Shown here in pieces: positions 20,014-61,800 of a stretch of 64,000 bases of DNA. Location: NCBI GenBank assembly GCA_019321725.1, contig CM033106.1, forward strand, positions 15,970,551-16,034,550. Reading direction: 5' to 3'. The position numbers were made by a program, and so were the translations under genes. This DNA comes from Paulownia fortunei. Its lineage: Eukaryota > Streptophyta > Magnoliopsida > Lamiales > Paulowniaceae. The notes under the pieces were generated by a model, which saw nothing but the letters and a program-made list of their open reading frames with translations, was not told the origin of the DNA and did no database searches. Numbering within the stretch: the first letter of the stretch is position 1; each line of letters opens with the position of its first letter.

Positions 20014-20029
20014 TAAGAAAGTTGTTAGA

Positions 20030-22767: not shown

Positions 22768-22783
22768 AGGGCAACTAGGAGAT
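22768..22783 (+). other. polypurine tract of copia-B
   Basis: AGGGCAACTAGGAGAT directly precedes the 3' LTR. Confidence 0.8.
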
Positions 22784-24928
22784 TGTTAAAGTAGTGCCCG
22801 GTGGGCCAATTAGATTGGGCATATCATATACTCTTGTATTTTTTTTAAAAATATTTTTCAAATCATATTAATAAAATAGGTAAATTTATTTATCTTTAAT
22901 TGCATATAGTAATTATATAAAATCCCTAGACCAAACTTAGCTATGGGGCATGGTAACACATTTGATGGTGATCATGGAATATGTCTCTGTGGCTTCGGTC
23001 TTAAATTAGTTTCGAGTCGAAGGCTTTTTGTGATGAGACATCAAATAGCCCACTAGACTTGTGCATATAATATAAGCTCGCATGAGGAGGATATCACACT
23101 CCATGGACATTGGCGTAGTGATGCTGGTGCATGTATGCGGAACAAGTACACTGAACTGGCCTGCTGGAAATTCTTAATTGGGAACATTGTTTGTCGAAAT
23201 AAAAAATTTCATATTATGATAGTACACAACTATTCCTTGGACTTGAGGTACCGTGGTGGCCTTGTGCATGTTGTGTTCCATTTTGATGTATCTTTTAATT
23301 GCCTGACAATCACAAATGGGGTTTGTTAGATGTTGTACTGATATTTATGGAGGTTAATGAGTGTCCAACACATGATTTGTCACTTGCCTGGTAGAACGAG
23401 TGAATCTCTTATGTTTTCATAGTTTATGACTCAGAAGTCCTTGCTAAGGCAAGATGAATATTAGACGGGGTATTCTAACGATTCGTCATGAGTCATTAAA
23501 ATAAAATTATAGTTATTGAGTAATTAGGGTTTCAACTATTAATTCATACTCTAGACTCAATCGTGAGATTAGTTGACGGAAGGGCCTTACGTGTCTGATA
23601 CTCATAATTAAAATATGTTCACTCACTATTTCACTTAAGTCTAGGTAGTCATGATATATTTGCTAGGTGTTTTCCATGACTTGTGAGGTTCGAAAAAATA
23701 AGGAGTTAATTTCAAGTGGATTAATTAATTAGATTAATTAATCAAAATATTTATTATTACTCGTAAGTTGCAAATATTGCAAGCCCACTGCTAGCTTAGT
23801 TGTGAAATTAAAGGGTCACACACAAATTGAGATGGACATTTCTAACGTAGGAATTAATCCAAAGAGTTAGATATAATTAATTAATGAAGATTAATTAATT
23901 GAGGGCTTAAATTAACTTAATGAGTTGAATTAATTATTTAATTAAATAATTAAATTATATAATTGGATCTAATATTATTAGGAAGCCTAATTAGAGTGAA
24001 ATAATTATTTGATTAGATCAAATGAATTGTGTAGTTCATAATTAATTTAATTATTAAATTAATTTACTCAATTAAATAATTAGATTATTTATTAGGCCTA
24101 ATTCGATTAAGTAGGCTAGATAGAATTAATTAATTGAATTTGGACTAAAGTAATTAATTGAATTAATTATGATATTTATTTTAAGTTCAAGTCCAATTCA
24201 ATGAGACCCGTTAGGGAGGCCCACATGGGTTGTTGAAAAAGAACGAAAACTTAGGAGTTTGAAATTCTTGGGAGACTCTAAATATCTTTGGAAGATATGA
24301 AGGAAAGAGTTGGAGAATTTTGGGACAACAAAAAATCTTTCAACCAATTAAAAGAAGACCAAAAACACCAAGAGTGAGACTCTTGAAATTTTTGAATGCC
24401 CTATATAAATCATAGGGGCCAAAAATTTGAGGGTAATAGTAGCCCTTTAATTTTCAACCATAAAAAAATTAAGGAGAAAAAATATTTTCTTTCTCCATTC
24501 TTTATTCCACCAAAAATTCCATCTTTTTATTTAAGTATTAATTCTTTTGTCACAAGTTGATAACAATAATTAATATTCACTATATTCACTCCATAAACTA
24601 GGTTAATAAATGATTCAAAATTGTTAGCGAAATTTTAATTTTGTGTTTTTGTTCAAAGTGTGGACTACTTTGGAGGGGAAATGATTGGATCCCTATTAAT
24701 TGAAATTCAAAAAGGGGCTAGTAATCAATTGCTTCAATCTCTAAGACAACCTGAGAGCATTGAAAGGTATAATAAATTGAAATTGTTTCAAGTTTTATTA
24801 AACCATTGGAAATTACGAGATTATTAAAATCACATTGGACCCGAGGTACTGCTATAACTATTATGGCATGTTGTTTTTGAAATTTGATTTTTCCACTGCG
24901 CACACCCCGGGATCACTCAAACCTAACA
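22784..24928 (+). repeat. 3' LTR of copia-B (2.1 kb)
   Basis: It runs from TGTTAAAGTAGTGCCC to CTCAAACCTAACA. It retains the TTAATTAA-rich middle (23700-24190) that the 5' LTR has partly lost. The AAGTGTGGACTACTTTGGAG and CCACTGCGCACACCC landmarks near the end are shared with the LTRs at 17096-17340 and 31337-31590. Confidence 0.92.
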
Positions 24929-26477: not shown

Positions 26478-26664
26478 AACCATAGAGCCTCTTTACAGAT
26501 GCAGTAACGGGCCAACCAACTAAGGTTAGGCCTTTGAACACACATTCTCCATGGGAGATCCTATAGGATCTTAAAGCCAAATGAGAGGTATAGCTTTTTG
26601 TTAGAGAACAATGAGGAAAATCTCCCCTTGGACGATGATCCAAGGACTTATGGAGAGGAAATGG
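26478..26664 (+). pseudogene. misplaced integrase-RT linker segment
   Basis: The segment matches copia-C's own linker at about 27798-27985 (EPQSLxTDAVTGQ, then GQPxEVRP-like, YSFLLENN-like and DDDPRTYGE-like strings), but it lies upstream of protease instead of between integrase and RT. The two copies differ at many positions, so this is not a recent duplication. It probably came from another copia copy by recombination or template switching. The right join (ATGGAGAGGAAATGGAGTAT) leads into the protease end. Confidence 0.75.
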
Positions 26665-27790
26665 AGTATCTTTAATTTTAAATAATTGTCTTTATGTTCC
26701 AAAGATAGTTAAGAACACTATCTCCATTCTTGTTTTGGATAGAGAAGGTTTTACTTTTTCAATAAAATATGGAAGTTGTTTTATTTTTAAAGATTTAGTT
26801 TTGATTACCTCTCGCATATTGATGAATGGTTTATATTCTATTAATCCCCATAGCTCATTTTTTCATGTTCAACAAAATAAAAGAAAAATAGATGATCATA
26901 ATTCCCAACTGTTATGGCATGCTAGATTAGGTCATATCTATGAGAAAAGAATTTATAAGTTGACCCAATTGCTCAATCTTTCGAAAGAGCAAGGAATGCC
27001 AACATGTGAGTCATGTCTCAAAGGGAAAATAATCAAATCACCATTTGTTGGACAAGTGGAATGAGCCAAAAATATATTGGATTTGATCCATTCAGATGTA
27101 TGTGGGCCAATAAGTGTTAGTGCTCATGGAAACTATTACTACTTTATAACTTTTACCGATGATTATTCTAGGTATGATTATGTCTACCTTATAAGGTACA
27201 AATCTGAACCTTTTAAAAAGTTCAAAGAATTCAGATGTGAGGTGGAGAAATAAACTGGGCTAAGTATCAAGGCTATTTGATCAGATCGAGGAGGTGAATA
27301 CTTAAGCACAGAGTTTCATGATTATCTAAAAGAAAATGGGATTCTCTCTCAATGGACCCCTCCTGCAACTCCCCAACTCGATGGAGTTGCGGAGCATAAA
27401 AATCAAACCTTGTTGGACATGATTCGATCGATGATGAGTTTTATTGAACTTCCTCTTTCATTTTAGGGCTATGCTTTAGAAATGACGGCACGTATATTAA
27501 ATAGACTGCCATTAAAGTCGGTGCCCAAAACACCATATGAGATGTGGTGTGGGAAACCACCCTCTTACAAATGCCTTAAGGTATGTGGGTGTGCTGCTTA
27601 CGTAAAGTAGCAAGTGGGAGATAAATTGGATATGAGATCCAGTTTATGTAGATTCATGGGGTATCCAAAGGAATCCATTGGATACTATTTCTACAATCCC
27701 TTATAACAAAAGGTGTTTGTTTTGAGAAATGCCACTTTTTTAGAAGAGGAGTTTCTATTAGATAGAAATGACGAAGTCGTGGAACTTGAA
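26665..27790 (+). pseudogene. copia-C protease end and integrase (broken)
   Basis: An open stretch at 26735-27064 gives MDREGFTFSIKYGSCFIF, SRILMNGLYSINPHSSFFHV, DDHNSQLLWHARLGHIYEKR and MPTCESCLKGKIIKSP, so the HHCC zinc-binding residues are intact. After a stop follow LDLIHSDVCGPISVS, FITFTDDYSRYDYVYLIRYK, SDRGGEYLSTEFHDYLKENG, WTPPATPQLDGVAEHKN and YEMWCGKPPSYKCLKVCGCA. The three catalytic acidic positions (HSDVCGP, SDRGGEY, GVAEHKN) are all present, but TGA or TAG codons precede or interrupt several blocks. The DTG part of protease is absent. Confidence 0.88.
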
Positions 27791-28990
27791 GAAATTCAAG
27801 AACCACAGAGCCTCCCTACAGACGCAGTAACAGGCCAACTAGCTGAGGCTGAGCCTTCGAACACATATTCTTATAAGTGATCCCATAGGATCTTAAAGCC
27901 ACATGTGAGGTATAGCTTTTTGTTAGAGAACAACAACAAGACTCTCCTCTTGGATGATGATCCAAAGAGTTATGGAGAGGCAATGTTAGACATCAACTTG
28001 GGAAGATGGAAAGAAGCCATGTAATTCGAGATAGACTCTACGTACTCCAACAGGGTATGGACCTTGGTGGACCCACCATAAGGAATAGTTCCTATTGGCT
28101 ACAAATTGGTCTACAATCTTGGAGTAAATGGAGAGGTAACGACCTACAAAGCACGACTGGTTTCAAAAGGTTATACTCAAAAGCAAGAATTAATTATAAG
28201 GCAATTTTTTCACCAGTAGCGATGCTTAAATTCATTCGGATACTGCTAGCTATATCAGTGTATTATGACTATGAGATATGATAAATAGATGTGAAGACTG
28301 TTTTCCTTAATGGAAACATTAAGGAAGAAATCTATATGAGGTAGCCAAAAGGCTTCATGTCTAAAGGAAGTGAGTAAAAGGTTTGCAAACTCCAGAGATG
28401 CATTTATGGACTCAAGCAGACTCCTCGAAACTAGAACATCGAGTTTGAAGAGGTAATCAAATCATTTGATTTCCATGAGAACCCAGATAAACCCTGTGTT
28501 TAGCGTAGTAACATTTATTGTGTTATATGTTGATGACATTCTACTCATTAGGAATGATGTAGGGATGATGCAGTTAACTAAGACTTGGTTATCCAATTAG
28601 TTCTCCATGAAGGAATTGGGAGAAGCATCATTTATTCTTGGAATAAAGATCTATCGAGATAGATCAAAAAGAATAATCGGACTATCCTAATCTACGTACA
28701 TAGACAAAATGCTAAAGAGGTTTAGCATGGAGGAATCCAAGCGAGGATTCTTGTCGATGAGTCATGGCATTTCTATCTTGAGGGAAATATCTCCTAAGAC
28801 TCATGAGGAGAGGGAAATGATGACTCGCATACCTTATGCATCCGCCATATGAAGCATAATGCATGGCATGCTTGTACTAGGTCTGATGTCGCATATGCTC
28901 TGAGTGTCAAAAGTAGATATCAGTCCAATCCAGGTGAGGAACACTGGAAGGCCATAAAAATGATCCTAAAGTACTTGAGAAGGACTAAGG
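27791..28990 (+). pseudogene. copia-C reverse transcriptase (broken, YVDD intact)
   Basis: The segment begins EEIQEPQSLPTDAVTGQ and carries SYGEAMLDINLGRWKEAM, FEIDSTYSNRVWTLVDPP, GEVTTYKARLVSKGYTQ, MLKFIRILLAISVYYDYEI, KEEIYMR, KVCKLQR-like and GLKQ-like strings. LYVDDILLIRNDVG follows at 28523-28562, then MKELGEASFILGIKIYRD and RFSMEESKRGFLSMSHG. YVDD (28526-28537) is intact, but frameshifts near 28100, 28190 and 28500 and several stops prevent a full protein. It is the least decayed RT of the window and the best reference for placing this family. Confidence 0.88.
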
Positions 28991-29511
28991 ATATCTTTCT
29001 TGTATATGGATCTAGAGAACTGAAACTAGAAGGCTATAAAGATTTTAGTTTTCAGTCTGGTATAGAAGACTCAAAGTCAATGTTCGGATACATATTCACC
29101 TTAAATAGTGGTGCGGTCAGCTGGAAGAGTTCTAAGTAGGATACGACCGCAAATTCTACCACCAAAGCTAAATATATTACTGTGTGTGATGCGGCAAAAG
29201 AAGTTGTTTGGCTAAGGAACTTCATCCAAGAGTTGAGTATGGTTCTATCCGTTGTTCATCCTGTATTGATTTATTGTGATAACAATGAAATTATTACTCA
29301 AGCAAAAGAGCTAAGATCTCATCAAAGATCAAAACACATCATGAGGATATACCATCTGATTAGAGAGATCATTGGTAGAGGCGACGTTGTAGTGGATATA
29401 GTCTCTTCGGCAGAAAATATTGCAGACCCACTGACCAAACCTCTAACGCAGAAGGTATTTGATGGATATCTTGAGAAGATGGGCTTAAAGTACATGGGCA
29501 ATTGGCGCTAG
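28991..29511 (+). pseudogene. copia-C RNase H (broken)
   Basis: Two open stretches, 28849-29139 and 29182-29511, cover the RT end and RNase H. They include RSDVAYALSVKSRYQSNPGE, LKYLRRTKDIFLVYGS, LEGYKDFSFQSGIEDSKSMF, GYIFTLNSGAVSWKSSK, then CDAAKEVVWLRNFIQELSMV, LIYCDNNEIITQAKELRSHQ, HIMRIYHLIREIIGRGD and IADPLTKPLTQKVFDGYLEK. The end MGLKYMGNWR is the usual polyprotein C-terminus, just before the polypurine tract. A stop and a small gap near 29140-29180 separate the halves. The RNase H core acidic residues appear largely kept. Confidence 0.88.
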
Positions 29512-29525
29512 GGCAAGTGGGAGAT
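29511..29525 (+). other. polypurine tract of copia-C
   Basis: GGGCAAGTGGGAGAT follows the RNase H stop codon and directly precedes the 3' LTR. Confidence 0.85.
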
Positions 29526-31692
29526 TGTTAGAGTAGTGCCCGACATGCCAATTAGATTGTGCATCCTTTATACTCTTGTATTTGTAAAAATAATCTTTTT
29601 GAAATCATATTAATAAAAAGGCAAATTTCTTTATCTTTAATTACTTCTTGTAAAGACCAAACTTAGCTATGGGGCATGGTCACGCATTTATGGTGATCAT
29701 GGAATAGAGGCTTTGGTCTTAAATTAGTTATAAGTCAAGGGTGTTTTGAGAAGGGACATTGAATAGCCCAACAGAGTCGCGCATACGATGCATGCTCGCA
29801 TGAGAAAGATGTCTCGCTTTATAGATATTGGTGTAGTGATGTTAGTGCATGTATGCGGGTGCTTGTTAGGGAACAAGTACACTGAACAGGCCCACTAGAA
29901 TTTCTTAATTGGAAACTTATTTCTCGAAATAAGAAATTTCATATTACGGTAGTACACGATTAGTCTTTTGACTTGAGACACCATGGTAGCCTTATGCATG
30001 CCATGTTTCATTTTGATGTATCTTTTGATTGTTTGACAATCATAAAAGGGTATACATTAGATGTTGTATTGATATGTATGGAGGTTAATGAGTGGTCAAC
30101 AAATGATCCATCACTTGTATGGTAGAATAAGTGAATCTCCTATGTTTTTATAGTTTATGTGTTAGAAGTCCTTGGCCAATGCAGGATAAATGTTAGACGG
30201 AGTTTTCTAACGATTATCATGAGTTATTGAAACTTGAAACGAAATCATAGTTATTGAGCAATTAGGCTCAATCGGGAGATTAGTAAATGAAAAGACCTTA
30301 TGTGTATGATACTCGTAATTGAAATATATTCACTCGCTATTTCACTTAAGTCTAGGTAGTCATGATACACTTGTTAGGTATTTTTCATGATTAGTGAGAT
30401 TCTTGAAATTAAGGAGTTAATTTTAAGCGGACTAATTAATTGGATTAATTAATCGAAATAATTATTATTCATAAGTTGAAAATGTTGCAAGCCCACTGCT
30501 GGCTTAGTTGTGAACCTAAAGTGTCACACACAATTTGAGATGGAATATTTCTAATTTAGGAATTGATCTACAGGGTTGGATCCAATTAATTAATAGAGAT
30601 TAATTAATTGAGGGCTTAAATTAATTCAAGGAGTTGAATTAATTATTTAATTAAATAATTAGATTATTTAATTGGACCTAATAAGATTAATGAGCCAAAT
30701 TAGAGTGAAATAATTACTTGATTAGATCAAATTAATTGTGCAGTCCATAAATTAATTTAATTAAATAATTAGATTATTTAATTGGGTCTAATTTGATTAG
30801 ATAGGCTAGATGGAATTAATTAATTTGAGTAAGAAAATTAATTAGATTAATTGTAGGATTTATTTTTAAGTCCCAGCCCAATTCACTAAGGCTTATTAGG
30901 AAAGGCCAATGAAAAAAGATGGAAAGTCAAGAGTTTGGAATTCTTGGGTAATCTTGAATATATTTGGAAGATATGAAAGAGATAAAATTGAAAGAAATTT
31001 GGATGAACCAAAATATCTTCCAACTAATTAAAAGGAGATTTTAATTAGACATAAAATATCAAGAGTAGGACTCTTGAAATTTTTTGTCCCCTATAAATAC
31101 ATGGTGGCCGAAAATTTGAGGGTGAATTACGATCTCTATAATTTTCGGCCATATAGAAATTAAGAGAAGAAAATTATTTTCTTCATCCATATTTTTTTTC
31201 TCCAAAAATTTCATCTTTTAAGTGTTAATTCTTTTATCACAAGTTGATAACAGGAATTAATATTTTCTATAAATACTCCATCAACTAGATTAGAAAAGAA
31301 ATCAGAATTGCTAGCGGAATTTTAATTTTGTATTCTTGCTCAAAGTGTGGACTACTTTAGAAGAGAGACATTTGGATCCCTGTAAACCAAATTTAGAAAA
31401 GGGGCTAGCAATTGATTGCTTCATAACCTACGACAATTAGAGTGCATAGAAAGGTATAAATCAAAACTTTAATTATTTTATTACAACCATTGGAAATTAT
31501 AAGATCATTAAAAATGGCATCGGATCCAGGGTATTGCTATAATTGTTATGGTATGATGTTTTTAAAATTTTTAATTTTCCACTGCGTATACCTTGTGATC
31601 GAATCCAGAAAGTTGCATAATTGTTATGGCTTGTTTATTTTAAAAGTTTTAATTTTTCACTGTGCAGACCCCATGATCAAGCAAACCCAATA
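29526..31692 (+). repeat. 3' LTR of copia-C (2.2 kb)
   Basis: It runs from TGTTAGAGTAGTGCCC to AGCAAACCCAATA. The last 120 bases contain a partial duplication: TAATTGTTATGG(T/C)(A/T)TG and TTTTAA...TTTTTCACTG-type sequence occurs twice, at about 31538-31590 and 31617-31665. Confidence 0.9.
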
Positions 31693-37563: not shown

Positions 37564-39315
37564 TGCTACAACTTTAAGATTGCAAACACAAGTGTAGGTT
37601 ATGTCAAGTAATAAATTTCTTGTAAGTTTGAGACCGATCCATAGGGAAGTTGTTTGAGGTTTTTAGGATTATAGTTTTTAAAATATAGGTTCCTTGAATT
37701 TTAGATTAAAAAAATTATATTATAACTAAGAAATCAAAGTAATAAAAGCATTGAGGATTAGGGATCAACTCTTAAGTTTTGGATAGAAGAATGATTATTT
37801 ATTATTATTTTTACCTTTTTAAATGCCACTAATGAAAACCATACACAACGAAGGTTGCAATGGAAAAATGTTATCAAAGAGCTCAGTCACTAAGGTGATC
37901 ATGATATTGTCTTATTGTCTATAAATTATCTCTTAATACCAATACTTATTTATGGGATCAAGTATTTGTGTACACCTTTGTCTACAATAAATTAAGGTTT
38001 CACATTAGTAGTCAGTACACTAGAATTAGACATCTAGCTAAATAAACCCAAATATTTGTTGTGCCATTAGTGATACATAAATCAAGAATTACCACAAAAT
38101 AATAAGGGTTTTAGTGCCAACACTTATATATGGGATTACTTATTTATGCATACCTTTGTTAACAACAAATCAAGTTTTCTTGTTAGCCCTTGGTATAGTA
38201 GAACTAGACATTTAGCTAAATAAACCTAAGTATTTTTTGTTCTATTAATAATACATAAATCAAGAATCACCACAACACAAGAAGGGTTTAATAAAAAATT
38301 AAGATAATAATACAACATATTAAATATTATGCACCTTTATAACTATATCTCTTCCTCCATCAACAGGTCCACCCCTTCTCCTCAGCCAAATGAAATTGAG
38401 AAAGACATAATAAAATTAGAAAAAACTAAAAATAGAAGAGAAACTAAAGAAAACATTTCTATTACTACTAGAAAATTTAGCCTAAATAAAGACAACAATA
38501 AAACTTTCTTTCCCCACTCTAAGGGTTTTTTGTGTGTCTTGAATAACATCCAAGAACCTTTATTTATAGTACAAGAGTGCCAAAATTGGCATCTCCAAAT
38601 TCACTCCAAATGCACTCCAAATTTACTTTAAATATGCTCTAAATTCACATGTCCTTCTTAGATTTGAATTTTTTCATACATTTTTTCCATGAAATCAGTT
38701 GATTTTGGAATAATGGTCAACATAAAAGTTTTAGATTTATCTGTTAGCTTCATTTTTCAATTTGAATCAACTAATACCAACTAATAGGGATAAAGTTATG
38801 CTTGATTTAAGGAGATATGTCAGCATAGATAGATTCCTTCCATTACACACATTTGGACAAAATTTTTGCTTTTATCAAAGCTGAATTGGGGCTGAGCTTC
38901 CAATAGCCAACTTGTACTTCTATCTCTTAGCTTTAAAATGAAGCAATATTCAGGTCCATAGAGCTTTGAGCATGGAGTTATGCCTAAAATACAAAAATTG
39001 CGCAAGTTTGGAAACATGCTGATTTTGAATTTAATGCATGCCCAATAATCACTTGCAAAGTCCAAGTAATTTCTTGCATATATTTTGATCTACACATGAT
39101 GGAATTAGGCAAAAATAGGCCTTTTCTTCTAATTGTAATACTTCTTTGATCTAATGAAATATTATCTCCCAACTTGCTAACGAACCGTGTTGTATTCTTT
39201 GGCTTCTTTTGGCTCTTTTTAATCTCATTTTGTCAATTGATTCTCTAACACAAAATATTAATAAAAAACTAATATTAATAAGAATATAAACATATATCAA
39301 AATATGCACTTATCA
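37564..39315 (-). repeat. Athila LTR, outer left copy
   Basis: Minus-strand LTR of 1.75 kb. Plus-strand ends are TGCTACAACTTTAAGATTGC and AAATATGCACTTATCA. It aligns with 46150-47947, sharing for example GTCAAGTAATAAATTT, ATGGGATCAAGTATTT and TTAGATTTGAATTTTTTCA-type blocks. It contains a repeated TTTATGGGATCAAGTATTT / TATATGGGATTACTTATTT segment (37951 and 38130). The 100-codon plus-strand frame at 38329 is chance. Confidence 0.85.
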
Positions 39316-39345
39316 AATCCCCCCACACTTAACTCTTGCGCGTCC
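39316..39345 (-). other. outer polypurine tract of Athila
   Basis: Minus strand: AAGAGTTAAGTGTGGGGGGA-type sequence next to the LTR start TGATAAGTGC. It is the typical Athila tract and one of two in this element. Confidence 0.75.
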
Positions 39346-39346
39346 T

Positions 39347-40211
39347 TACTATTAGAAAACTTAGTTTAAAGAAAGACAACAATAAAATTTACTTTCCCCA
39401 TCTAAGGGTTTTTATATATGTTAAATGATATTCATAGTAGAAGAGTGCCTAAATTAACATCTCTGAATTCACTCCAAATGTACTCCAAATTTACTTCAAA
39501 TATTCTCTAAATTCACATGTTCTTTTCAGATCCAAATTTTGTCACACATTTTTCTTCATGAAATCAGTTGATTTTGAAAAATTAATAGACATGAAAGCTG
39601 TATATTTTTTATTAGCTTCATTTTTCAACTTGAATCACCTAATTCCAACCACTAGGGAAAAATTTATCCTTAATTTAAAGAGATGTGTCAGCATAGATAG
39701 ATCCCTTCTAATACACATATTTGGATGAATTTTCTGCTTTTAATCAAGGCTAAATTGGGTTGAGTGTCCAACAACAATATTATAGTTATATTCTTAGCTT
39801 TCAAATGAAGCAAGATTCAGGTATATAGGGCTTTTGAACGTGGAGTTATGCCTAAAATACAAAAACTGTAAAATTTTAGAAACATGCTTATTTAGAATTT
39901 AATGCAAGCCCAACAATCACTTGCAAAGTCCAAGTGATTTTTTGCATATATTTTGATCTACACATAATGGAATTAGGCAAAATAGATATTTTCTACAAAT
40001 TGTGGTGCTTCTTTGATCCAATGAAATATTATCTCTCAACTTGCTCAAATAAAAGTATTGTCTTCTTTGGTTTCATTTTTGCTCTTTTAGATTTCTTTTT
40101 GTTCATTGATTCCCTAACATAAAACATTAATAAAACTATAATATTAAAAAGATAAAACAAGAAAAGTATAAATGATTTGATACAAAAATATGTCAAAATA
40201 TGCACTTATCA
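39347..40211 (-). repeat. Athila LTR, inner partial copy
   Basis: An 865-bp second copy of the 5' half of the LTR (minus-strand sense), equivalent to 38460-39315. It ends at its own AAATATGCACTTATCA start and directly abuts the outer polypurine tract. The two copies differ at many bases, so the duplication is old or joins two different elements. Confidence 0.82.
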
Positions 40212-40250
40212 ACTTTTCCCACACTTAACCCTTGCTCGTCCTCAAGCAAG
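40212..40250 (-). other. inner polypurine tract of Athila
   Basis: Minus strand: TTGCTTGAGGACGAGCAAGG followed by GTTAAGTGTGGGAAAAG, abutting the inner LTR copy. It is the usual Athila 3' end. Confidence 0.8.
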
Positions 40251-41895
40251 CCTATGGCAAACCTAAACTAATCCACTTTCGTAGGAAATCACGATTGTAT
40301 TTAGCATATTCAACAAGCCTTTAAACCCCTAGTTGGCCTATAGAGGACGAGTTATAATCTCGTGAGGATTTCCAGCAGTGATACCCATAAACACCTATGA
40401 TAACTAACTTCCAACCATTATTCTCAGGAAGCAACAAAGTAATATGGAAATGAAATCAAACAAGTGTTGAATCTAACCCTTAGTCATTCAAAAGTCAATA
40501 CATTTCCACAATAAGCATACTCAAGTATGTGGGAAAATAGTTAATGTCAAAAGTGACGAAACCATGCATGCTTCAAACAAGTGAAATTCCATATAACCTT
40601 TCAAAAATCATCACCCAATCTCTAATGGAACAATTAAACATCATATGCTCTCCTTTGGTATAAATCTCCACTACACTGAAGGCATCACACGAAATCAAAA
40701 AGGTTTTCAACAAAGGTTGTAATGGGGCCAAATGGTAGTGATGTGGCTAAGAAATAAAAGAATAAAATATAACAAAGGTTCTAAAAACTTCTTGGGATTA
40801 GAGATATAGAATTTATCAATGAAGAATTCTCATACTCCATGAATTTCAACACAGGGGCCTATTATTATTGCATTGGTTCATTATTCTAATTGATTTTGCA
40901 ACATTCCATTTGTAGTTGCAACTTATAATATTTTAAATACTTTGCGACTTTTTTTAAAGAAACTCCCCACACTTATCTTTTATTCCAACCTAAATTTCTT
41001 TTGCAAGCTCACCTTGTCAATGGAACATCTCTTAAGCTCTAAATCATTTTTAGAACAAGGGTAGGATAAGAGTGTATTTAGACTAGGTAAAAAGATATGG
41101 TTACCAAAGAAAAAGATTTATTTATTGAAAGGCTCAAAGTGGCTTAATATGGGGGATGTTTTCTTTGAACATCACATGGGGAACAAGCTGGTTTGGCCAT
41201 GGGGCTAGAAAGCCTAATGCCTTAATCATTTTTCAAGTGGTGTTCAATTAGTTATTCATCTCAACAGACCTAAAGGAAAAATTCGACATGTTGAAAATCC
41301 AAGTGATGATTAAAGCGAGGTATAAGAACTACCTATTTTGACATACTTGTCTCCACACCGGATAACATAACTATTTGTGCAAAAAGATTTAAGTATAATT
41401 ATTGAAAAATATATTAACTAAAAAACAACATTAAAGTCTAAAACAGCACCCATCATCAATCAAACCACATTATTCGTGCTTAATTTTAATCATTAAAGTT
41501 GGAAGAACATCTACGACTGAAAAAAATTGACAATTTACAAACTTTTGTTAAAAAATTCAAAAACTTGCCATGTTATGCAAAAAAAAGGTGTATGTCTCAA
41601 GAGTGTTAAAGTTACCCTTTACTCTACCATCCTTTTTCATGGTTTCAACGGACCTAAAAAAAACACGTTTGAAATTTTTTTTACTTTAAAAAAAATTAGA
41701 AAAACACACATTGTATACACAAGACATGATATCAACTATCCCCTCCCACAACCTAATTGAGACATTATCCCCAATGTCAAAAATAGATAAAAAAGTAGAG
41801 TTTAGAAGATATTACTTGAAATAGGACTTATTGGAAAATAAAGTTGAAACAACACAATATATATATTATTAGTTGAAACCATTAAGGATAAATTT
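40251..41895 (-). repeat. Athila 3' non-coding region
   Basis: No coding frame is supported. The stretch includes AAAGGTTTTCAACAAAGG and TTGTAATGGGGCCAAATGG (40709-40735) and, near 41749-41780, CCTAATTGAGACATTATCCC before CAATGTC. Its complement resembles the GACATTG(A/G)GGA(C/T)AATGT plus GTGGG motif found before the Athila 3' end. The motif supports assigning the stretch to Athila and brackets the LOG-like fragment on its downstream side. Confidence 0.6.
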
Positions 41896-42486
41896 CATAG
41901 GCTGAGAGTCAAATTCATTTTGTATTTTCGACCATTGTCTCTGTTGGACCAATCCACACGAGCCACGGTTGGATCAGGTTCTGGCACTATGCTAGAAGTT
42001 GATCAATCAGTTGGTTAAGTGTTGGCGTAGAAATGAGAATTTGTCTCGTAGACAGTGAAATAAAATCTTTTTCTACAACATGATCTACAAAAGATAGTAA
42101 ACCATTAAACAAACCATTAACAATAAGAATAACTACATATTTTTGGTGAATGTTGAGTTGTGGCCAAAAGACAACTTGAAATAATTCCTCTAGTGTACCA
42201 AAACCACTAGATAGAGTGATGAATGCATCCATATTATTTAACATGTTAGGCATTCTGTCCTGATTTTTATACTTGTGATATTCTGTACTGTTAAAGGTTT
42301 TGCGATAACTTCTAAAACTTTGAATCCTCCTACATGAGCAGAAGTAGCAACACTCCCCATTAACCCCAGACTGCCTCCCCTATACACTAAAGTATAAACT
42401 TATCCTATAAACTTACCATTTTTTCCTGGATTAGTTCCACAAAAGACATAAATACAGTTGAACTTGTGAGTGGAAGACCCTTCTAT
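41896..42486 (-). pseudogene. LOG: LOG-like cytokinin phosphoribohydrolase gene fragment
   Basis: The minus-strand reading begins IEGSSTHKFNCIYVFCGTNP, GKN (ATA where a start ATG would be), then LVYRGGSLGLMGSVATSAHV and GGFKVLEVIAKPL. After a frameshift come DRMPNMLNNMDAFITL, SSGFGTLEELFQVVFWPQLN, IHQKYVVILIVNGLFNGLLS, FVDHVVEKDFISLSTRQILI and STPTLNQLIDQLLA, and after another shift VPEPDPTVARVDWSN, ending MNLTLSL and a stop. The order and motifs are those of LOG, which releases active cytokinin bases from their nucleotides in the cytosol. The PGGxGTxxE motif has become SSGFGTLEE. About 25 residues between PGKN and LVYRGG are missing; a GTAAGT and an AG remain there, as if intron edges survived. 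It is a dead gene copy inside the Athila 3' region. Confidence 0.82.
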
Positions 42487-43770
42487 TTTCTTTTTTTTTT
42501 ATTTTACAAGTTTGTTGTTAAAAAATAGAGTAAGTATGGTGCTATTTATTGAGGTGTGAATAGGGAATGTATTTATTACATGACTTTTTCTTTTGTCAGA
42601 AAGGTTGAAAATAAGGACAAAATCTAAAAATTAGCTACTTACAGGTGAATGTACATGTTGTAGTGACAGTGGCTCACATTTTCGTCTAGTTTTACATCCA
42701 ATAATGGCTTAAACGCCATCTATGGGTCAAAAATATGCTTCCTAATCCAATTTTCTTATAAACTGGTGAATAGGGTTTTTTAATACCAAATTCCTAAGAC
42801 TATAACACTCATATTCATCCTAAAAGTGATTTCATAAATCATGAATTGCACGTTGTACTAATTTCACATGAATGGGCCTCAAAAGTCAATTTAATGTCAT
42901 CTAAAGACTCCATAATGAATTGAATTTTATTTTTTTGATTATTAGAAACCATTCCTAAGGAATAACACTTTATGTTGCAAGTCCATCGAGCACATTTGTG
43001 ACAAACTTGCCTTTTTTTTGCCCTTTATTTTTTTGAGTATGTGCTTTTACCAAAACTAGGCATATATCTAGTAAGCAAGTTTAAAAACTTGTATGGAAAC
43101 TCACCTGCTACTCTTACCTTTGTTTCAATTATCTGTTATATGTCCACTGGGATGCCCTTGTGCATAAGCATCTTTAATTTTTCAACCTAGGTTTTATAAA
43201 TTTTTAAAATTACATTTTAGGGATAAAAGAAAATCACTTGTTGAGAGTTAGAAGAATGTCATCCATTTTTAAAAGAATAAGAAAAGAGAATGAGAAAAAG
43301 AGAGAAACTTTGTACAAAGATTTTAGTTGTTTGAAAAACTAATAAGTCTGACTTACCGTTATCCGCCACTTAATTGGGAAGGATCTTAATTTTTGATAAT
43401 TTCATAACTTTTGTAGAAAGTGTAAGTGTCTTTGAAAAGAGTGAGTCAATAAAATCCACACTGCAAGATCTTTGTAGTGGTTTTCTTTGTTGAAAAGTGA
43501 CTACCATGTGCTCATGCATGATTTTTTTTTTAAAAATACTTCCTACTATATTGTCAGCATGCATTTTTTATTAGGACAAAATAAAATAGAAAAAAGTAAA
43601 AAACTTAAATGGATAAAAAGAAAAAAGAATGAGAGTTAGAGAAAATAAATTTGTAATTATCGGCTCTCATAATTTTTTTTTCCATCCATTGGGTTGTCTC
43701 CTATCAAGCGCTTGGTTTAATGTTCTCAGCTGAACATTGACTCCTTCACCACTCATCAATATATGCTGCC
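42487..43770 (-). repeat. Athila 3' region upstream of the LOG-like fragment
   Basis: This is AT-rich, with no recognisable coding frame. A run of A lies directly before the LOG-like start (minus strand, 42501-42491). At 43720-43695 the minus strand reads AAACCAAGCGCTTGATAGGA followed by GACAACCCA, a motif I associate with the region after the Athila polyprotein. The 64-codon frame at 43370-43564 has no recognisable match. Confidence 0.5.
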
Positions 43771-43781
43771 AAAGTCATCCT

Positions 43782-44160
43782 CTATTCAATCACCATCTTA
43801 TAATTTTGAATTACCCAAATAAGTTTATCCGCTTGTAATTGAGTGAGGTCTTTAGCAATACTGACTAATGGTATTTTTTTCTCACCTAAGTAGACATATT
43901 TAAGATGGTTTGGGATTGGTTTAAGCTCCATTATAGGTATCTGCACCATATAAGCTAGAAGCCTCTCATTTGCTATTGGCAATTCAACATAAAATACATC
44001 ACACCTTGATTTTTTTGGCAACAAATCTAGCCCGATTAAATCATTTTCCACATCCCCAACATTTTCATATCCAACTTCTTTTCTTTCAAATCCTCCATAA
44101 GGAGAGGTTTATATAAAGTAACCTCTACTCCATCCTTGCCAGTGAAGTCAAGCATTTTTA
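43782..44160 (-). pseudogene. Athila pre-reverse-transcriptase segment
   Basis: An open frame at 44051-43782 reads MENDLIGLDLLPKKSRCDVF, PIANERLLAYMV, IMELKPIPNHLKYVYLGEKK, IPLVSIAKDLTQLQADKL and IWVIQNYKMVIE. The ELKPxPxHLKYxYLG block is the conserved stretch just before reverse transcriptase in Athila-type polyproteins. The frame ends where RT should begin, and sequence passes within about 80 bases to 3'-region motifs, so RT, RNase H and integrase were removed by one deletion. Confidence 0.8.
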
Positions 44161-44169
44161 TGATATGGG

Positions 44170-44640
44170 ATTAATAATGTTAACTGCAGAAACAACATTC
44201 ACATCAGTAGGACATCTCATGCTTAAAAATAATTATATTTTATAAACTCGCCATCAATCTCCATAGTAAGAGTGCCATCATGAATATCAATCTTAGCTCG
44301 ACTGTCTTCATAAATGGTCTTCCCAAAATAATGGTGTAGGATTAGGGCATGTGTCATCCTCCACCTCAAGAACATAAAAATCAGCAGGGAAAGCTAATTC
44401 ATTTAACTACACAAGAACATCTTTCACAACCCCTATTGGATATGGATTAGATCTATCAGCTAATTATATGATAATACCAGTTTCTTTTAAAGGTCCTAGA
44501 TTTAAAGAAACATAAATAGAATATGTCATAACATTAATTGATGCTCCTAAATCTAACATGCATTTTTCAAATCAGGTCTTACCAATGGTACAATGGGATG
44601 GTAAAAGTGCCCAGATTCTTATACTTTGGATGGAGTTTTC
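44170..44640 (-). pseudogene. Athila protease (broken)
   Basis: The minus-strand translation gives FEKCMLDLGASINVMTYSIY, VSLNLGPLKETGIII, LADRSNPYPIGVVKDVLV, LNELAFPADFYVLEVEDDTC and PNPTPLFW, followed after a one-base loss by RAKIDIHDGTLTMEIDGEFI-like sequence. This aspartic protease type carries DLGA in place of DTGA, and that site is present. Two stops and a frameshift near 44335 break it. It lies between the gag linker and the pre-RT segment, as expected. Confidence 0.83.
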
Positions 44641-45091
44641 TTTGAAGAACCACCAAAACATTCTCCCCTACACTTACTTTTTCATCCCCCCTCAACTTTC
44701 ATTTGTTAGTGAATAGCTTTTTGAGCAACTTAGCATATTGAGGTACCTACTTGATTGTATCAAGAAGAGGGATATTTACCTCCACTTTTCAAAAAGTCTC
44801 AAGGATCTCCTTTTCTTACTCATTTTTCTTAGAATTTGCTAACCTACTAGAAAAAGGTGGAGTTGTTACATAAGTATGAGAGAGAGGTTTAGGAGTGGTT
44901 ACCACCTTTAGATTCTCCTTAAGATGAATAATCTTGTCAACAACATTTTTATTTTGAAGAGTTGTGATCAAATTAGACTCCTTGATTGAATTTTGAACCT
45001 GAAGAAGAAACATAACATTGAGAGAAAGGATTAGGTTGAGGTTAAGTAGGAAATTTACCTTTTTCATGAGTACATAAAGAAGCTGTCAGTG
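44641..45091 (-). pseudogene. Athila gag-protease linker (broken)
   Basis: An open stretch at 45067-44816 ends HTYVTTPPFSSRLANSKKNE. After a stop it continues EKEILETF, KVEVNIPLLDTIKQVPQYAK, LLKKLFTNK and VSVGENV. The proline-rich SRLxxSKK block followed by a VxVNIPLLDxIKQVPxYAK block is typical of the Athila stretch between gag and protease. Confidence 0.8.
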
Positions 45092-46007
45092 TTAAAAGTG
45101 TGCTTTTGATCTCATTGATGGCTTGTGAAGTCTGGTTAGTGATGTTTGTTTGTGCATGTATAAATTCTTGCAAAGTATCCTTAAGAGATTTTGTATGTAG
45201 AGCTGGATAAGAAGGAAAGTTTGGTGGCTTTTGTGAATGTAATGATTGTCACGGTTATCATCTCGCCAACTAAAATTAGAATGATTTCTCCATTGTGGAT
45301 TATAAGTTTCAGAATGTAGAGAATGAAAAGGCTTTTTGAATGTGTTCATAACATTTGCTTGTGTTGAAATATTTAGACATTCATTGGTGGAGTGTCCCAC
45401 AAGTTCACGAATGTTACAAACTTTTTTATCTTGCACATATATAATTTTCTTTACTTTTTTAAGTTCCACGACCTCAACTTTTCTTGTTAAACTAGCAATC
45501 CTAGCATTTAGATTATCTTCTTGACTAAGGTAATATTTTTTTTTATTACTATTAGCAAGATTAGATCTAATAGAACCTTTGAAAGAATTAACATTATGCC
45601 ATGATTGAGACTTTTCTGCCAAATGGTCTAGATATTCTAGGGTTTCATTATGTTCTTTATCAAGAAACTTACGATTACACATTATTTCAATAGGTTGTTT
45701 TATTTTAGGAGTTAAACTTTCATAAAAGAAACTAATTAAGAGCCATGGCACATACTTCATCAAATTCTTTCAGATACAAGTAAGGGCTTTCGAAGTCTAA
45801 ACCATGGAAATTAGGAAGTATCATACTTGGCTTGAACCAAAAGTTATTTACATTTAGAGGAAAAATGAAACAAGAAGGAGAAGAAAATTCGAGGAGGTTA
45901 AAAGTAATAACGCATGGTATGCACCTGTTGATTTTTATTTTCATCCTGAACACTTTCATTTTCAGCCATGGTGGAAGTGTGTGGAGGTTAATCAAATAAA
46001 TTTCCAA
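45092..46007 (-). pseudogene. Athila gag (broken)
   Basis: Two overlapping minus-strand frames (46007-45732 and 45763-45092) together cover part of gag. The first ends FKPSMILPNFHGLDFESPYL, YLKEFDEVCAMALN. The second contains ISFFYESLTPKIKQPIEIMC, NRKFLDKEHNETLEYLDHLA, EKSQSWHNVN, CNIRELVGHSTNECLNI and NTFKKPFHSLHSETYNPQWR, then NHSNFSWRDD. These are classic Athila gag blocks. Between the frames about 100 residues are missing, so the overlap marks a deletion with frameshift. The CCHC-type knuckle is degraded. The product would have been the capsid of a virus-like particle. Confidence 0.87.
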
Positions 46008-46124
46008 ATAAAGGTTTAGAATTATTTCTAACTAAATAAGAATTATGATTATGATACCATATGAACATATAATCGTAAAGAAAACAAACACATAATATTT
46101 CCAAACCTAAATACTTACCTGGCC

Positions 46125-46149
46125 TTCCCCAACAATGATACAAAAAAAT
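46125..46149 (-). other. decayed primer-binding site of Athila
   Basis: Minus strand TGTATCATTGTTGGGGAA lies just inside the LTR. It resembles the Athila-type site used with aspartate tRNA, with several C-to-T and G-to-A changes. Confidence 0.5.
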
Positions 46150-47947
46150 TGCTACAACGTTAAGATTGCAAACCCAAGTGTAGATTATGTCAAGTAATAA
46201 ATTTTTTAGGAGTTCAAGGTTGATACACAGAGAAGTTTTTTAAAGTTTTTAGGATTATATTTCTTCAAAGATGGGCTTTATATAGTTTAGAATATAAAGA
46301 AAAAATTATATTATAACTAAAAAATCAAAGTAATAAAAGTACTAAGAATTATGGATCCGCTTTTGAGTTTTGGATAGAGGATCGATTATTTATTATTATT
46401 TTTTTGCCTCTTTTAAGTGCTACCATTAGAATCCATATACAATGAAGGTTCAAATGAAAAGATATTATCAAATAGCTCATACATTATGATAATCATGATA
46501 TTGTTATACTGTTTGCAAATTATCTCTTAACACCAATACTTATTTATGGGATCAAGTATTTATGCACTCCTTTGTCTACAACAATTTAAGTTTTCATGTT
46601 AGTAGTTGGTGTAGTAGAACCGTACAATAAGCTAAATGAACCCAAGTATTTGTTATGCTATTGGTGATATAAAAATAAAGAATCGCCACTAAATAAGGAA
46701 GGTTTTAATGCCAACACTTATTTATGGGGTCAAGCATTTATGCACACCTTTATCTATAACAAATTAATATTTCACGTCAGTAGTCGATGTAGTAGAATCA
46801 TACAATAAGCTAAATGAACCCAAATATTTATTGTCCCATTGGTGATACATAAATCAACAATTACCACAAAACAAGAAGGGTTTCAACCAAAAATGAAAAC
46901 AAAAATACAAAACACCTAAACATTATGCACCTTTATAATCTTCCCTTTTCTACATCAAGAGGTTCATCCTTTTTTCTCAACTAAATGAGATTTAGAAAGA
47001 TATAATGAAAGTAGAAAAAAAAGTAAAACTAGAGAATACATTTCTATTACTACTAAAAAACTTACATTACTACTAGAAAACTTAGCATAAAGAAAGACAA
47101 TAATAAAACTTTCTTTTCCTATCTATGAGTTTTTATGTGTCTTGAATGACATCCAAGAGCCCCTATTTATAGTTGAAAAGTGCCTAAATTAGCATTTCCA
47201 AATTCAACCCAAATGCACTCCAAATTTACTTCAAATATGCTCTAATTTTACATGTCCTTTTTAGATCTGAATTTTGTCACACATTTTTCTCTATGAAATC
47301 AGCTAAATTTGGAAACGTGATCAACATGAAAGTTGTATATTTTCTATTATCTTTACTTTTCAACTTAAATTACCTACTTCTAACCACTAGGGAGAGATTT
47401 ATCCTTGATTTATGGAGATGTATCAGCACAAATATATCCCTTCTAATATACACATTTGGAAGAACTTTCAGCTTGAATCAAGGCTGAATTAGCTGAGTTC
47501 TAATAGCAACATTGTAGTTCTATCACTTGGCTTTAAAATAAAGCAAGACTCAAGTCCAGAAGATTTTTGAACATGGAGTTATGCCCAAAATTTAAAAATT
47601 GCACAAGTTTGGAAACATGTTTATTTTGAATTTAATGCTAGCTCAACAATCACTTGCAAAGTCCAGTAATTTCTTTCATATATTTTGATTTACACATGAT
47701 GGACTTAGGTAAAAATGACAAATTTTTTTTGTAATTGTGATGCTTCTTTTATCCAATAAAATATTATCTCCTAACTTGCTCACGAAACGTTTTTGTCTTC
47801 TTTAGTTTCATTTTGATTCTTTTTTATCTTTCTTTGTTCATTGATTCACTGACACAAAATATTAATAAAACTATAATATTAACAAGAATAAAGCAAGAAA
47901 AGTATAAATGACTTGATACAAAAATATGTCAAAATATGCACTTATCA
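46150..47947 (-). repeat. Athila LTR, right copy (5' LTR)
   Basis: A 1.8-kb LTR with plus-strand ends TGCTACAACGTTAAGATTGC and AAATATGCACTTATCA. It matches 37564-39315 throughout. A short internal repeat of ATTACTACTA(A/G)AAAACTTA occurs at 47045-47085. Confidence 0.87.
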
Positions 47948-54595: not shown

Positions 54596-56886
54596 TGTAA
54601 CACCCCTTAACCTAATTGCAGAGCCTAAACAAGCTGATATAGTTAAGTCAAGAAATGTTAATTTTTCATCAATACTAAAGTTATGGTTTTAATAAAAGTT
54701 CCCATTTTTAGGTATAAGAGAGAGCTTGAATCGTTTTAAACACACTATATACATATATCGAAATTGAGTACATTTGTTTACAAAACCATAACAGAGCGGC
54801 TTATTTAAAAACAAAACAGAGTTTTCAAAATAAAGTACAAAACAGGTCGAAGCATGGCATATGAACAAATCTCTGTCCGACTGCTCTAGAGACTCAGTCA
54901 ACTTCTAAACCTGTACATTTCCACCTGCATCACATGAATCTAATGAGCTAAAGGCTCAGTAAGATAAAACTGATGCAATAACAAATAACATATATGCACA
55001 TCTTATAAATCATTAAATGCAATATTCTATTTAATAACTTTCATTCATAAATCATTCTTTAGGGCCCTTGAAGTGTGGTACCTAATTAAATAGCGATAGA
55101 CCGTGGTTTTCAGAACCTGTTCATAATGATTGACCAATAAGAGAAATAATACGGGGTTTCCATACTTGATCTTTCAACCTCAGGTATCCGTATTCTATCT
55201 CATTTATTGTGGCTTTCCTATACCGGTTTTTCAACCTCAAATATTTGCCAACATTTGTTGGGTCCGCCGGTCCCTCCCGCGTCCCTTGTCTACCCGACCA
55301 TCAATCAAGTATCATACTTCTTTTTCAAAAACATCATTATATCCTTAATAGTATCATGCTTCATAAACCATAAATGCATCAAATATTACATCATTTCACA
55401 AATAATAACAATCAAATTAAAACATGAACAACATTATATGATTCTTGTGATACAGCAAATGAAAGCTTCAACTTACCTCAAGTCCACTTTGTGCTAAGTG
55501 AAAAGGCCAATCTCTTTGGAAGATAGGATGTGTTAAAGGCCTAATATAATCAAATCATGTACCATTTAATATCCTTTTTATAAATCATTTAGTCTATTCT
55601 AGTTAAAGTTTATATACACTTTTCAATCTTTTGTAAAGAATTACATATCAATTACATAACCTTAAAAACAATGCATACTCCATATTTTACTACTAATTCA
55701 AGACATTAAACATTAGGGCAGCCATTAAATAACTAATAATTCAAACATAATTATTAGGGCAGCCCCTAAGACATGCACACCATCCAAATTAACATGACGT
55801 AAATTCGGTTCTAACTTAAATTGATTGTACCCTTCAATTAAGAAAACTAATTGCTATTATTTTCAATCATTCAAAGAAACTTCCAAACACAATATAAGCA
55901 TTACAAAATCAATAGAAATAAGTAAATTAAACAATTTCACAAGACTATCAATTTTGCTAAAAATTAGCTTAACTAGATTGGTTTTGGCTTCAAGTGTAAC
56001 TTACTTAAGTTTTCAATCATACAAAAGCATAATAAAACATGTAACCATCCAAGATACTACAAATTCATCATAAGAAACATTGAAAAAGAATATACCTTGA
56101 TTAAGTTGGATTTAAGCTTCAAAATCAACGGTTTTCAAGCTTAAAAGGATGGAAACTTGTTCTAACTTGTGTTCTATGGATTCCTATGGATTGAATTCAA
56201 TTTTTGTGAGTATGAGAGTGTAGAAATTTGGGAGAAACTTAGGAGAATAAGGGCTGGTCATTTTTTAGGTGCTTCCACAAGAAATATGGATGAAAATGAT
56301 TTCTTTGACCTTTCAAAGAGAGATAAGTGCAGAGTGATGATTGGTTGCATCATGCTTGGTGTCTTCTCATGCCAAAACCCACATTCATGGGCTAAGGAGA
56401 TGACAAAAATTGATGCTTTGGTGTTATAATCAAGTGCAATGCAGTTTAGAATAGTTTTATGCAACAGTCAACCAACCAATCAAATTGCACCATTGTGCAT
56501 ACTTTTAGTTTTTAGCCAAATGTAACATATTTCAAGTAAATATTTAGGCAATTAATCACTTTAGCATATAACTAGTATGGAACAATACAAATAATTCATT
56601 TCATGGCCATTCAACACATCAATCTTTCTTAACCGAGATACCAAGCTTTTCACTACAAAAAGGGCACTTAAGGAATATGTTAAATCAAGAAATGAAAGTT
56701 TGATCTCATATTTTATGTACTAATGCATGTTAAATCATAACTGAAGCATATAATAACAATTATTCATGTTTGTGCAATCATGCTATTTGTATGCCATAAT
56801 TCGATAATGCACATTGATTAGATGCATATTCATGCAAAATGCTTATTATTGGCTATGTAGGAGAGCATTGAGAATTGGGCATTACA
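54596..56886 (+). mobile_element. gypsy solo LTR with TSD GATAT
   Basis: A 2.3-kb block from TGTAACACCCCTTAACC to TTGGGCATTACA, with perfect GATAT on both sides. The TGTAACACC...ATTACA ends are typical of Tekay/Del-type chromovirus LTRs. The direct repeat, single copy and lack of internal domains make it a solo LTR, inserted in copia-K gag. The 86-codon frame at 56169-56429 and its shadow at 56464 lie inside the LTR. Their sequence recurs inverted at 63671-63898, so they are repeat sequence, not a gene. Confidence 0.88.
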
Positions 56887-58862: not shown

Positions 58863-61800
58863 TGTTAAAGTGGTGTCCAACTTGCCAATTAATAGTCACC
58901 CTTATGAGTTAGCGAATAGACAGTCTTATTCAAAATATATTAATAAATTGGAAATTTATAATCTTTATTGCGTTTAAGCAATTAGATAAAGTCCTTAGAC
59001 CATACATAGCTTTCGGGATGGTTGCGCATATAATGACGATCATAGAATATACCTCTATAGGTTTGGCCTTAAATTAGTTTCAAGTCGAGGGCCTATTAAG
59101 AGGAGACATCAATATGTTGGGTTCGCGTGATCCCAGGGTATGCACAACGGAAAATTAAAATTTTTAAAAATATTAAACTATAATAATTATAGTAATACCC
59201 TATATTGGATTCATTTTTTAATGATCTCATAATTTCCAATGGCTATAATAAAATAATAAAAGTATCATTTCTTTGCACTCCGGTTATTGTAGGGTATGAA
59301 ACCATCAATTGCTAGCTCCTTTTTTGAATTTGGTTCACAGAGATCCAAATGTCTCCCATTTAAAGTAGTCTACACTTTGAGTAAGAACACAAAATCAGAA
59401 TTCCTCTAGCAATTCTAATTTTTTTTCTAATCTTGTTGATGGAGTGTGTATAGAAAATATTAATTCATGTTATCAAATTGTGATAAAAGAATTAATACTT
59501 AAATATGGAATTTTTAGAGAAAAAAGATGGATAAAGAAAATAATTTTCTTCTCTTAATTTTTATATGGCCAAAAATTATAGAGATGTTTCTACATCTTAC
59601 AATTTTTGGTCATGATGTATATATAGGGGGCTCAAAATTCCAAGAGTCCTGATCTTGGTATTTTGTGTCTTCTTTTGATTGGTTAGAAGATATTTTAGTT
59701 CATCCAACTTCTTCCAATTTTATCTCTTTCATATCTTCCAAAGATATTCAAGATTACCCAAGAATTCCAAACTCTTGACTTTCCATCCTTTTTCAATCAC
59801 TTTTCATGAGCCTTTCATAATAGGCCTTTTTGAATTGGGCTTGGATTTTAAAATAAATTGCACAATTAATTCAATTAATTATCTTACCCAAATTAATTAA
59901 TTCCATCTAGCCCAAATAATCAAATTATACCCAATTAAATAATCTAATTATTTAATTAAGTAAATTCATTTAATAATTAAATTAATTTATGGATTACATA
60001 ATTAATTTGATCCAATCAAATAATTGTTTCATTCCAATTGGGCTCCTTAATCTTATTAGGTCCAATTAAATAATTTAATTATTTAATTGAATAATTAATT
60101 CAACTCCTTGAATTAAATTAAGCCCTAATTAATTAATCTCTATTAATTAAATTAATCCAACTCTTTGGATCAATTCTTAAATTAGAAATGTTCCATCTCA
60201 AATTATGTGTAACCTTTTAGGTTCACAACTAAGTTAGCAGCGGGCTTGCAATATTTACAACTTATGAATAATAATAATTATTCTGATTAATTAATCTAAT
60301 TAACTAGTTTGATTGAAATTAACTCCTTAATTTTAAGAACCTCACAAGTCATGGGAAACATTTAGCAAGTATATCATGATTACCTTGACTTAGGTGAAAT
60401 AGCGAGTGAACCTATTTCAATTATGAGTATTATACACGTAAGGTCTTTCCGTCAACTAATCTCCCGATTGAGTCTAGGGCATGGATCAATAGTCAAAACC
60501 CTAATTTCTCAATAACTATGATTCTATTTCAAGTTTCAATGACTCATGATGAATCGTTAGAAAACCCCTGTCTAATATTCATCCTGCCTTAGCCAAGGAC
60601 TTCTGAGACATGAACTATGAAAACATAGGAGATTCACTTGTTATACCAGACAAGTGATGAATCTTTGTTGATCACTCATTAACCTTCATGCATATCAATG
60701 CAACATCCAATGTATCCCCTTTGATATTGTCAAGCAATTAGAAGATACATCAAAATGAAACACGGCATGTATAAGGCTACCATGGTGTCTTAAGTCAAAA
60801 GACTAATCGTGTACTATCGTAACATAGAATATCTTATCTCGATAAACAAGTTTCCAATTAAGAAATTCCAGTGGGCCTGTTCAATATGCTTGTTCCCTAA
60901 CAAGCACCTACATATATGTACTAGCATAACTACGCCAATGTCCACGGAGCGAGACATCTTGCTCATGCGAGTATGCATCGTATGTGAGAATGTATTGGGC
61001 TATTCGATGTAACATCTCAAAAACCCCTTGACTCGGAACTAATTTAAGATCAAAGCCATAGAGGCATATTCTATGATCACCATAAAATGCATGACCATGC
61101 CCCGTAGCTAAGTTTGGTTTAGGACTTTATCTAATTACAAGAAGGAATTAAGGTTAAAGAAATTTGCCTTTTATTAATTTGATTTGAAAAGGATTATTTT
61201 TTACAAATACAAGAGTATAAAAGATGGCCAATCTAATTGGCACGCAGGGAACTAGTCTAACACAAAAAGCCTGTAAAGACTCACGCACATGATGCATGCT
61301 CGAAAAAAGGATATCTTATTCTATAAACATCAGAGTGGTGATGCTAGTGCACTTGTGCATGTACTCATTGGGGAACGAGTATAATGAACAGGCCCGTGGA
61401 AAATTATCAATTGGAAATGTTGTTCATTAAATGAGAATTTTCTAATTATGATAATGTATGAATTAGTTCTTTAGCCCGAGGCACCATGGTGACCTTGTGC
61501 TCGACATCATACACTTTGATTATTTTCTGATTATATGACAATCACAAGGGGTTTTTCTTAGGTGTATGATCTTTATGTATGAAAAATAATGAGTGGCCAA
61601 CAAAGGATACATCACCTATCTGACAAAATAGGTGAATCTTTTATGCATTGTACGATCTTTGACTCAAAATTCTTTGGCCAAAATAGGATAAAAATTAGAC
61701 AAGGGATTTGTAATGATTTATCTTAAGCCAATGTGGCTAGGAATGAGATCATAGTTATTAAATCAAATAGAGTTTCGACTAATAATTCATGCCCTAAACT

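Follow-up and report, generated by a model that had tools for sequence, protein, structure and literature searches.

Analysis of the window, that is, the whole stretch of 64,000 nucleotides of Paulownia fortunei DNA, indicated that a pseudogene of the LONELY GUY (LOG) type lies on the minus strand inside an LTR retrotransposon. A second accessory pseudogene, which is NABP-like and was missed by the initial annotation, lies directly upstream of it. The features are given below; P0128 and P0002 denote database proteins and L001 a genome contig.

37564..47947, minus strand: LTR retrotransposon, Athila-like, about 10.4 kb (paired LTRs; collinear with L001 across the integrase remnant and NABP)
46150..47947, minus strand: 5' LTR, ends read TG...CA (LTR alignment)
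46126..46143, minus strand: possible decayed tRNA-Asp primer site, 11/18 (weak match)
43785..46031, minus strand: broken frames, gag-protease in the initial annotation (open pieces; label from that annotation)
43423..43512, minus strand: integrase remnant, zinc-binding region (90 bases, 80% identity to L001 505-594)
42720..43266, minus strand: NABP-like zinc-finger pseudogene (tblastn with the N-part of P0128; match to L001)
41895..42486, minus strand: LOG pseudogene (Pfam, PDB matches, tblastn, codon ends)
41670..41821, minus strand: noncoding stretch after LOG (matches L001 2533-2672)
39316..40242, minus strand: partial tandem copy of the polypurine tract and the first half of the LTR (repeat and LTR alignments)
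37564..39315, minus strand: 3' LTR (LTR alignment)

The LOG strings named in the initial annotation were found in place, and their identity was confirmed by Pfam, PDB and tblastn. The downstream piece of the pseudogene (42253-41986, minus strand) carries the Lysine_decarbox / LOG domain of the family (Pfam Lysine_decarbox, E=1.3e-18) and matched At2g37210 of Arabidopsis (PDB 2a33, E=2.4e-22), which we take to be LOG3. The upstream piece also matched 2a33 (E=8.1e-8) and matched no Pfam family. The intact Paulownia protein P0002 was matched in three frame pieces with a joint tblastn E=2e-63, which excludes a chance match. The coordinates first given proved nearly exact. Since the start codon, now lost, lies at 42486 and the stop codon ends at 41895, the 592 bases represent a nearly whole gene (217 codons in the intact relative) and not the fragment first described. 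The gene is interrupted by a single in-frame stop and by two frame breaks, has two short gaps and reads SSG in place of the PGG motif; neither the intact PGGxGTxxE motif nor the open frame of an active enzyme is present, and the copy is dead. The gap relative to P0002, which had been given as 25 missing residues, is shorter, with 11 aligned gap codons and about 6 more unaligned residues. The GTAAGT that had been taken for a splice remnant is in frame and codes for part of GKF, with which GEF is aligned in the coding sequence of the Paulownia counterpart. Capture of an intron or of a partly spliced RNA was therefore rejected, and the intron argument for capture from genomic DNA or partly spliced RNA fails. 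We reason that a lack of introns cannot tell genomic from RNA capture, because reverse transcription of the element removes introns. When the 64-kb window was searched by tblastn with P0002 and with the N- and C-parts of P0128, LOG and NABP were found at one place each.

The position of the LOG gene inside a retrotransposon, as first annotated, was borne out by two direct LTRs on either side of it (47947-46150 and 39315-37564). Alignment of the LTR pair revealed 1421 identical positions in 1813 aligned columns, 64 of them gap columns (81% identity without gaps; K2P 0.219). If 7e-9 to 1.3e-8 substitutions accumulate per site and year, the insertion dates back roughly 8-16 million years. The 5-base flanks of the element, where a target-site duplication would lie, read ATAAT and ATATT and agree at four of five positions. 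A 178-base unit is present twice in tandem in each LTR (37939-38289; 46533-46883), so the unit predates the insertion. The order within the element is integrase remnant, NABP, LOG, noncoding stretch and LTR.

A tRNA-Asp primer site is a trait of the Athila lineage. No tRNA-Asp primer site was matched at three or fewer mismatches. The possible decayed site at 46126..46143 agrees at 11 of 18 positions, a score that is reached at 22 places in the window and is not significant by itself; it is the only one of these places that adjoins an LTR, and C>T or G>A changes make up six of its seven differences. None of nine open pieces of the element matched a Pfam family above cut-off, gag and protease included, and the gag-protease label given initially to 46007-43782 therefore found no Pfam match. 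Reverse transcriptase, RNase H and the integrase core were not found in the element. The L001 segment matched by the integrase remnant sits in the Integrase_H2C2-bearing ORF of that contig. Searches of the window with Rfam at gathering threshold and with ARAGORN found nothing. The Athila label is plausible in view of the collinearity with the integrase-NABP contig L001, the weak primer-site match, sequence motifs and the literature.

The NABP-like pseudogene has retained its start codon and is interrupted by three in-frame stops within the part that aligns. It was matched by the N-part of P0128 at 43216-42869 with 60 of 121 residues identical (tblastn, E=5e-33), and the NABP-like piece of the window matched no Pfam family. 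P0128 is an Orobanche gracilis gene model in which an N-terminal domain is joined to a LOG of the separate clade described below; this domain scored 26.0 bits with Viral_NABP (cut-off 23) and 23.7 with Carla_C4 (cut-off 20.9). A search with it returned 118 proteins out of 152 candidates, the clusters including one of 109 sequences (O. gracilis) and one of 47 (Xanthoceras). Four of the 118 are joined to LOG-type domains, namely P0273, P0283 and P0299 from Orobanche and P0319 from Acer. Including P0128, five fused models with the same order are thus present in Orobanche (Lamiales) and Acer (Sapindales), and the NABP-LOG linkage outside the window rests on such gene models, which may wrongly join neighbours. 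All 23 aligned members matched both Viral_NABP and Carla_C4 at E<=1 (best 1.2e-8), a level that does not necessarily reach the cut-off in each. The spacing C-x2-C-x4-C-x3-C occurs in 107 of the 118 proteins and the carlavirus zinc finger C-x2-C-x12-C-x4-C/H in none of them; because of this different cysteine spacing the proteins are called NABP-like and were not assigned to the carlavirus family. The structure model of the NABP-like protein was poor (mean pLDDT 54.8). One NABP-like protein, P0318, derives from a 293-base contig recorded as Clostridioides difficile, probably a contamination.

A search of genome contigs with the NABP alignment yielded one locus, L001 (DAIEQH010000041.1, 3330 bases), which carries plant-type retrotransposon genes and was placed in a bacterial bin. 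This bin is recorded as Candidatus Nomurabacteria, and the contig is probably a contamination of it. The order in L001 is an integrase (rve and Integrase_H2C2), a full NABP-like ORF and noncoding DNA. The NABP-like protein of L001 scored 34.2 bits with Viral_NABP (cut-off 23) and 19.8 with Carla_C4, below the cut-off of 20.9. None of 11 LOG queries matched the 3330 bases at E<=1e-3. The window aligns with L001 through the NABP region to 42649 (69% nucleotide identity over 672 columns) and again at 41821-41670, where the score of 54 compares with a maximum of 42 in 200 simple letter shuffles. Between both matching stretches there are 114 bases in L001 and 827 in the window, LOG being located within the 827. 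Since the window matches L001 on both sides of LOG and L001 has no LOG between them, LOG looks, from these alignments, like a separable module behind NABP; L001 ends 986 bases past NABP, and a LOG may lie beyond that end, may have been lost from L001 or may never have been there. Viral contigs searched with P0002, P0205 and the NABP alignment gave no confirmed relatives.

A search with the window LOG returned 146 proteins among 192 candidates, Paulownia fortunei leading at 63% identity among the 120 listed, while in a profile search 8000 candidates were scored, of which 7461 had E<=0.001 and 120 were listed. Among the matches listed, the 90%-identity clusters comprised 328 sequences in Orobanche minor, 327 in Pterospermum and 244 in Orobanche hederae, sizes that may count more than one assembly; further listed members were from Populus, Rehmannia, Reevesia, Diplodiscus and Xanthoceras. 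The length was 205-230 aa in 116 of the 120 listed LOGs, and PGGxGTxEE was kept in 96, the strict motif being absent in 24. Xanthoceras sorbifolium models P0122-P0124 (336-381 aa) carry two LOG-like domains in a row, perhaps neighbours joined by gene prediction.

The main phylogenetic tree was constructed from 47 hand-chosen rows (the window LOG, 4 PDB chains and 42 database proteins), the two-domain models P0122 and P0123 being left out. It showed that the window LOG and 36 database proteins from Orobanche, Pterospermum, Paulownia, Rehmannia, Populus, Reevesia and Diplodiscus formed one clade (99/99), while the three host plant LOGs included in the trees, 2a33, 1ydh and a Nymphaea LOG, grouped apart (100/98). 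The window LOG paired with Paulownia (100/95), and this pair was nested in 13 rows of Paulownia, Rehmannia and Orobanche, all Lamiales (99/99). The 24-row tree is congruent (97/98 and 98/95), and in it a grouping of the window LOG with the three host plant LOGs was rejected (AU p=0.00055). Full support was obtained on 22 of 44 inner branches of the 47-row tree and on 9 of 21 of the 24-row tree, and long bacterial branches were flagged by the program. The window copy thus falls in the proposed clade of element-borne LOGs and not with the host LOGs, and the separate clade is present in several eudicot orders.

The separate clade, the large clusters, the five fused models, the gene order in the window and contig L001 together make it likely that the window LOG is a decayed accessory gene of an Athila-like LTR lineage, in which an NABP-like gene and LOG may form a cassette after the integrase. 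A recent local capture, in which a single element took LOG from its own host genome as genomic DNA or partly spliced RNA, would agree with the single place of LOG in the 64-kb window, and gene capture is known for plant LTR elements from the available parts of PMC7264820 and PMC13317346. It is nevertheless very improbable, given that the window LOG pairs with Paulownia copies inside the separate clade, that its grouping with host LOGs is rejected, that GTAAGT is coding and that models from Orobanche and Acer repeat the order NABP-LOG. The capture proposed initially therefore holds as far as a LOG of cellular origin decayed in an LTR retrotransposon is concerned, while the separate clade and the AU test speak against a local or recent capture and against insertion around a host LOG. 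Nested repeats fill the region, as would be expected if an ordinary host LOG pseudogene stood beside unrelated repeats or had been engulfed by them, but with LTRs on either side and with one pol contig (L001) matching both the DNA upstream through NABP and the stretch after LOG, this explanation is scarcely credible.

We also asked whether the clade could be a host gene lineage that was expanded by ordinary duplication and copied by an element once or more. Some copies are annotated as genes, e.g. LOGL10 in Populus, and the host side of the trees consists of three LOGs only. Against this, a host enzyme is not usually present in hundreds of near-identical copies, NABP and LOG are fused in models from two orders, and LOG domains of Populus and Citrus lie in LTR consensus sequences according to the accessible text of PMC9289625; we judge such a lineage improbable. 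A chance zinc-finger resemblance of the upstream gene, with no descent from a carlavirus NABP, is a serious possibility although we lean against it: the cysteine spacing, the poor structure model and the Carla_C4 score of the L001 protein favour it, while the Viral_NABP score of the same protein, the scores of P0128 above both cut-offs and the matches of all 23 aligned members to both families (not all necessarily at cut-off) oppose it.

Under the accessory-gene reading, an element that bore NABP would have acquired a cellular LOG in a single ancient event, and this LOG would then have spread by retrotransposition, kept by selection on the element. LOG would release active cytokinin and the NABP-like protein would bind nucleic acid, perhaps countering RNA silencing. 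As long as the element is active, cells may thus divide more and be more permissive, and new copies would be passed on more readily from a cell that divides and is less silenced. A wider proposal, which we regard as rather unlikely, is that a plant LTR lineage has carried a two-gene host-manipulation cassette, in which a nuclear zinc-finger or silencing-suppressor protein of RNA-virus type is paired with the lineage's own cytokinin-activating enzyme, since before the rosid-asterid host split or via transfer. Raised cytokinin and damped silencing would then produce meristem-like cells, through which new copies would reach the germ line, and exchange of NABP between RNA viruses and retrotransposons would be included.

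Retrotransposons are usually taken to need gag and pol only. A hormone gene long kept beside a virus-like zinc-finger gene would, if true, suggest that the element actively manipulates its host plant, and would open this idea to testing. LOG-bearing elements might likewise account for the great size of LOG-like clusters in Pterospermum and in the parasite Orobanche. Ordinary cytokinin-gene names ('Cytokinin-activating enzyme', 'LOGL10') have been given to some copies of the clade, and LOG gene counts in such genomes may therefore mislead.

Steinbauerova et al. in 2011 reportedly named two Athila-like elements as similar to LOGL4. That work is cited for LOG-bearing LTR elements in the accessible text of PMC9289625, where a YgdH (LONELY GUY) domain is described in LTR retrotransposon consensus sequences of Citrus sinensis, C. 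clementina and Populus trichocarpa. LOG in LTR elements is thus already in print, while no report of the NABP-LOG pair was found in the consulted parts of the open-licence literature. The Citrus and Populus elements likewise carry a LOG-type gene inside Ty3/gypsy LTR elements (PMC9289625, in part); the window element differs by its additional NABP-like gene upstream and its dead LOG, and the range is widened to proteins from Lamiales, Malvales and Sapindales that belong to one clade. Plant LONELY GUY enzymes (2a33, At2g37210; 1ydh, At5g11950) share the domain, and PGGxGTxEE with most listed relatives, while the separate clade has a conserved basic C-terminal tail and, in Orobanche and Pterospermum, lacks the single-copy pattern of host genes. 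The AlkB-carrying Gypsy elements of Phalaenopsis are similarly plant LTR elements with an acquired enzyme gene but carry another enzyme in an Ogre/Tat-related element (PMC9289625, in part). The accessible text of PMC13317346 contains none of the words 'LOG', 'lonely', 'Athila' or 'carlavirus'.

Carlavirus NABPs (Viral_NABP, Carla_C4) resemble the NABP-like proteins in a basic stretch followed by CxxC, some members scoring above the Pfam cut-off; the latter differ in cysteine spacing, are longer (about 182 aa) and occur in LTR elements and not in RNA viruses. In the accessible text of PMC8839810 the C-x2-C-x12-C-x4-C zinc finger is given for one carlavirus, jasmine virus C, carlavirus NABPs are described as silencing suppressors, and a connection with a host factor and with cell proliferation is drawn for the NABP of chrysanthemum virus B. 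In cucumber, an insertion resembling a betaflexivirus replicase is reported in PMC3136472, the available part of which mentions no NABP in retrotransposons.

Other nested elements were identified in the window. A direct repeat of about 5 kb with 79% identity joins 19902-24914 and 26656-31600, with reverse copies at 59129-61262. An inverted repeat of about 720 bases with 92% identity (56156-56876 and 63279-64000) was the most alike pair among the top 60 rows and possibly represents LTRs or ends of younger insertions.
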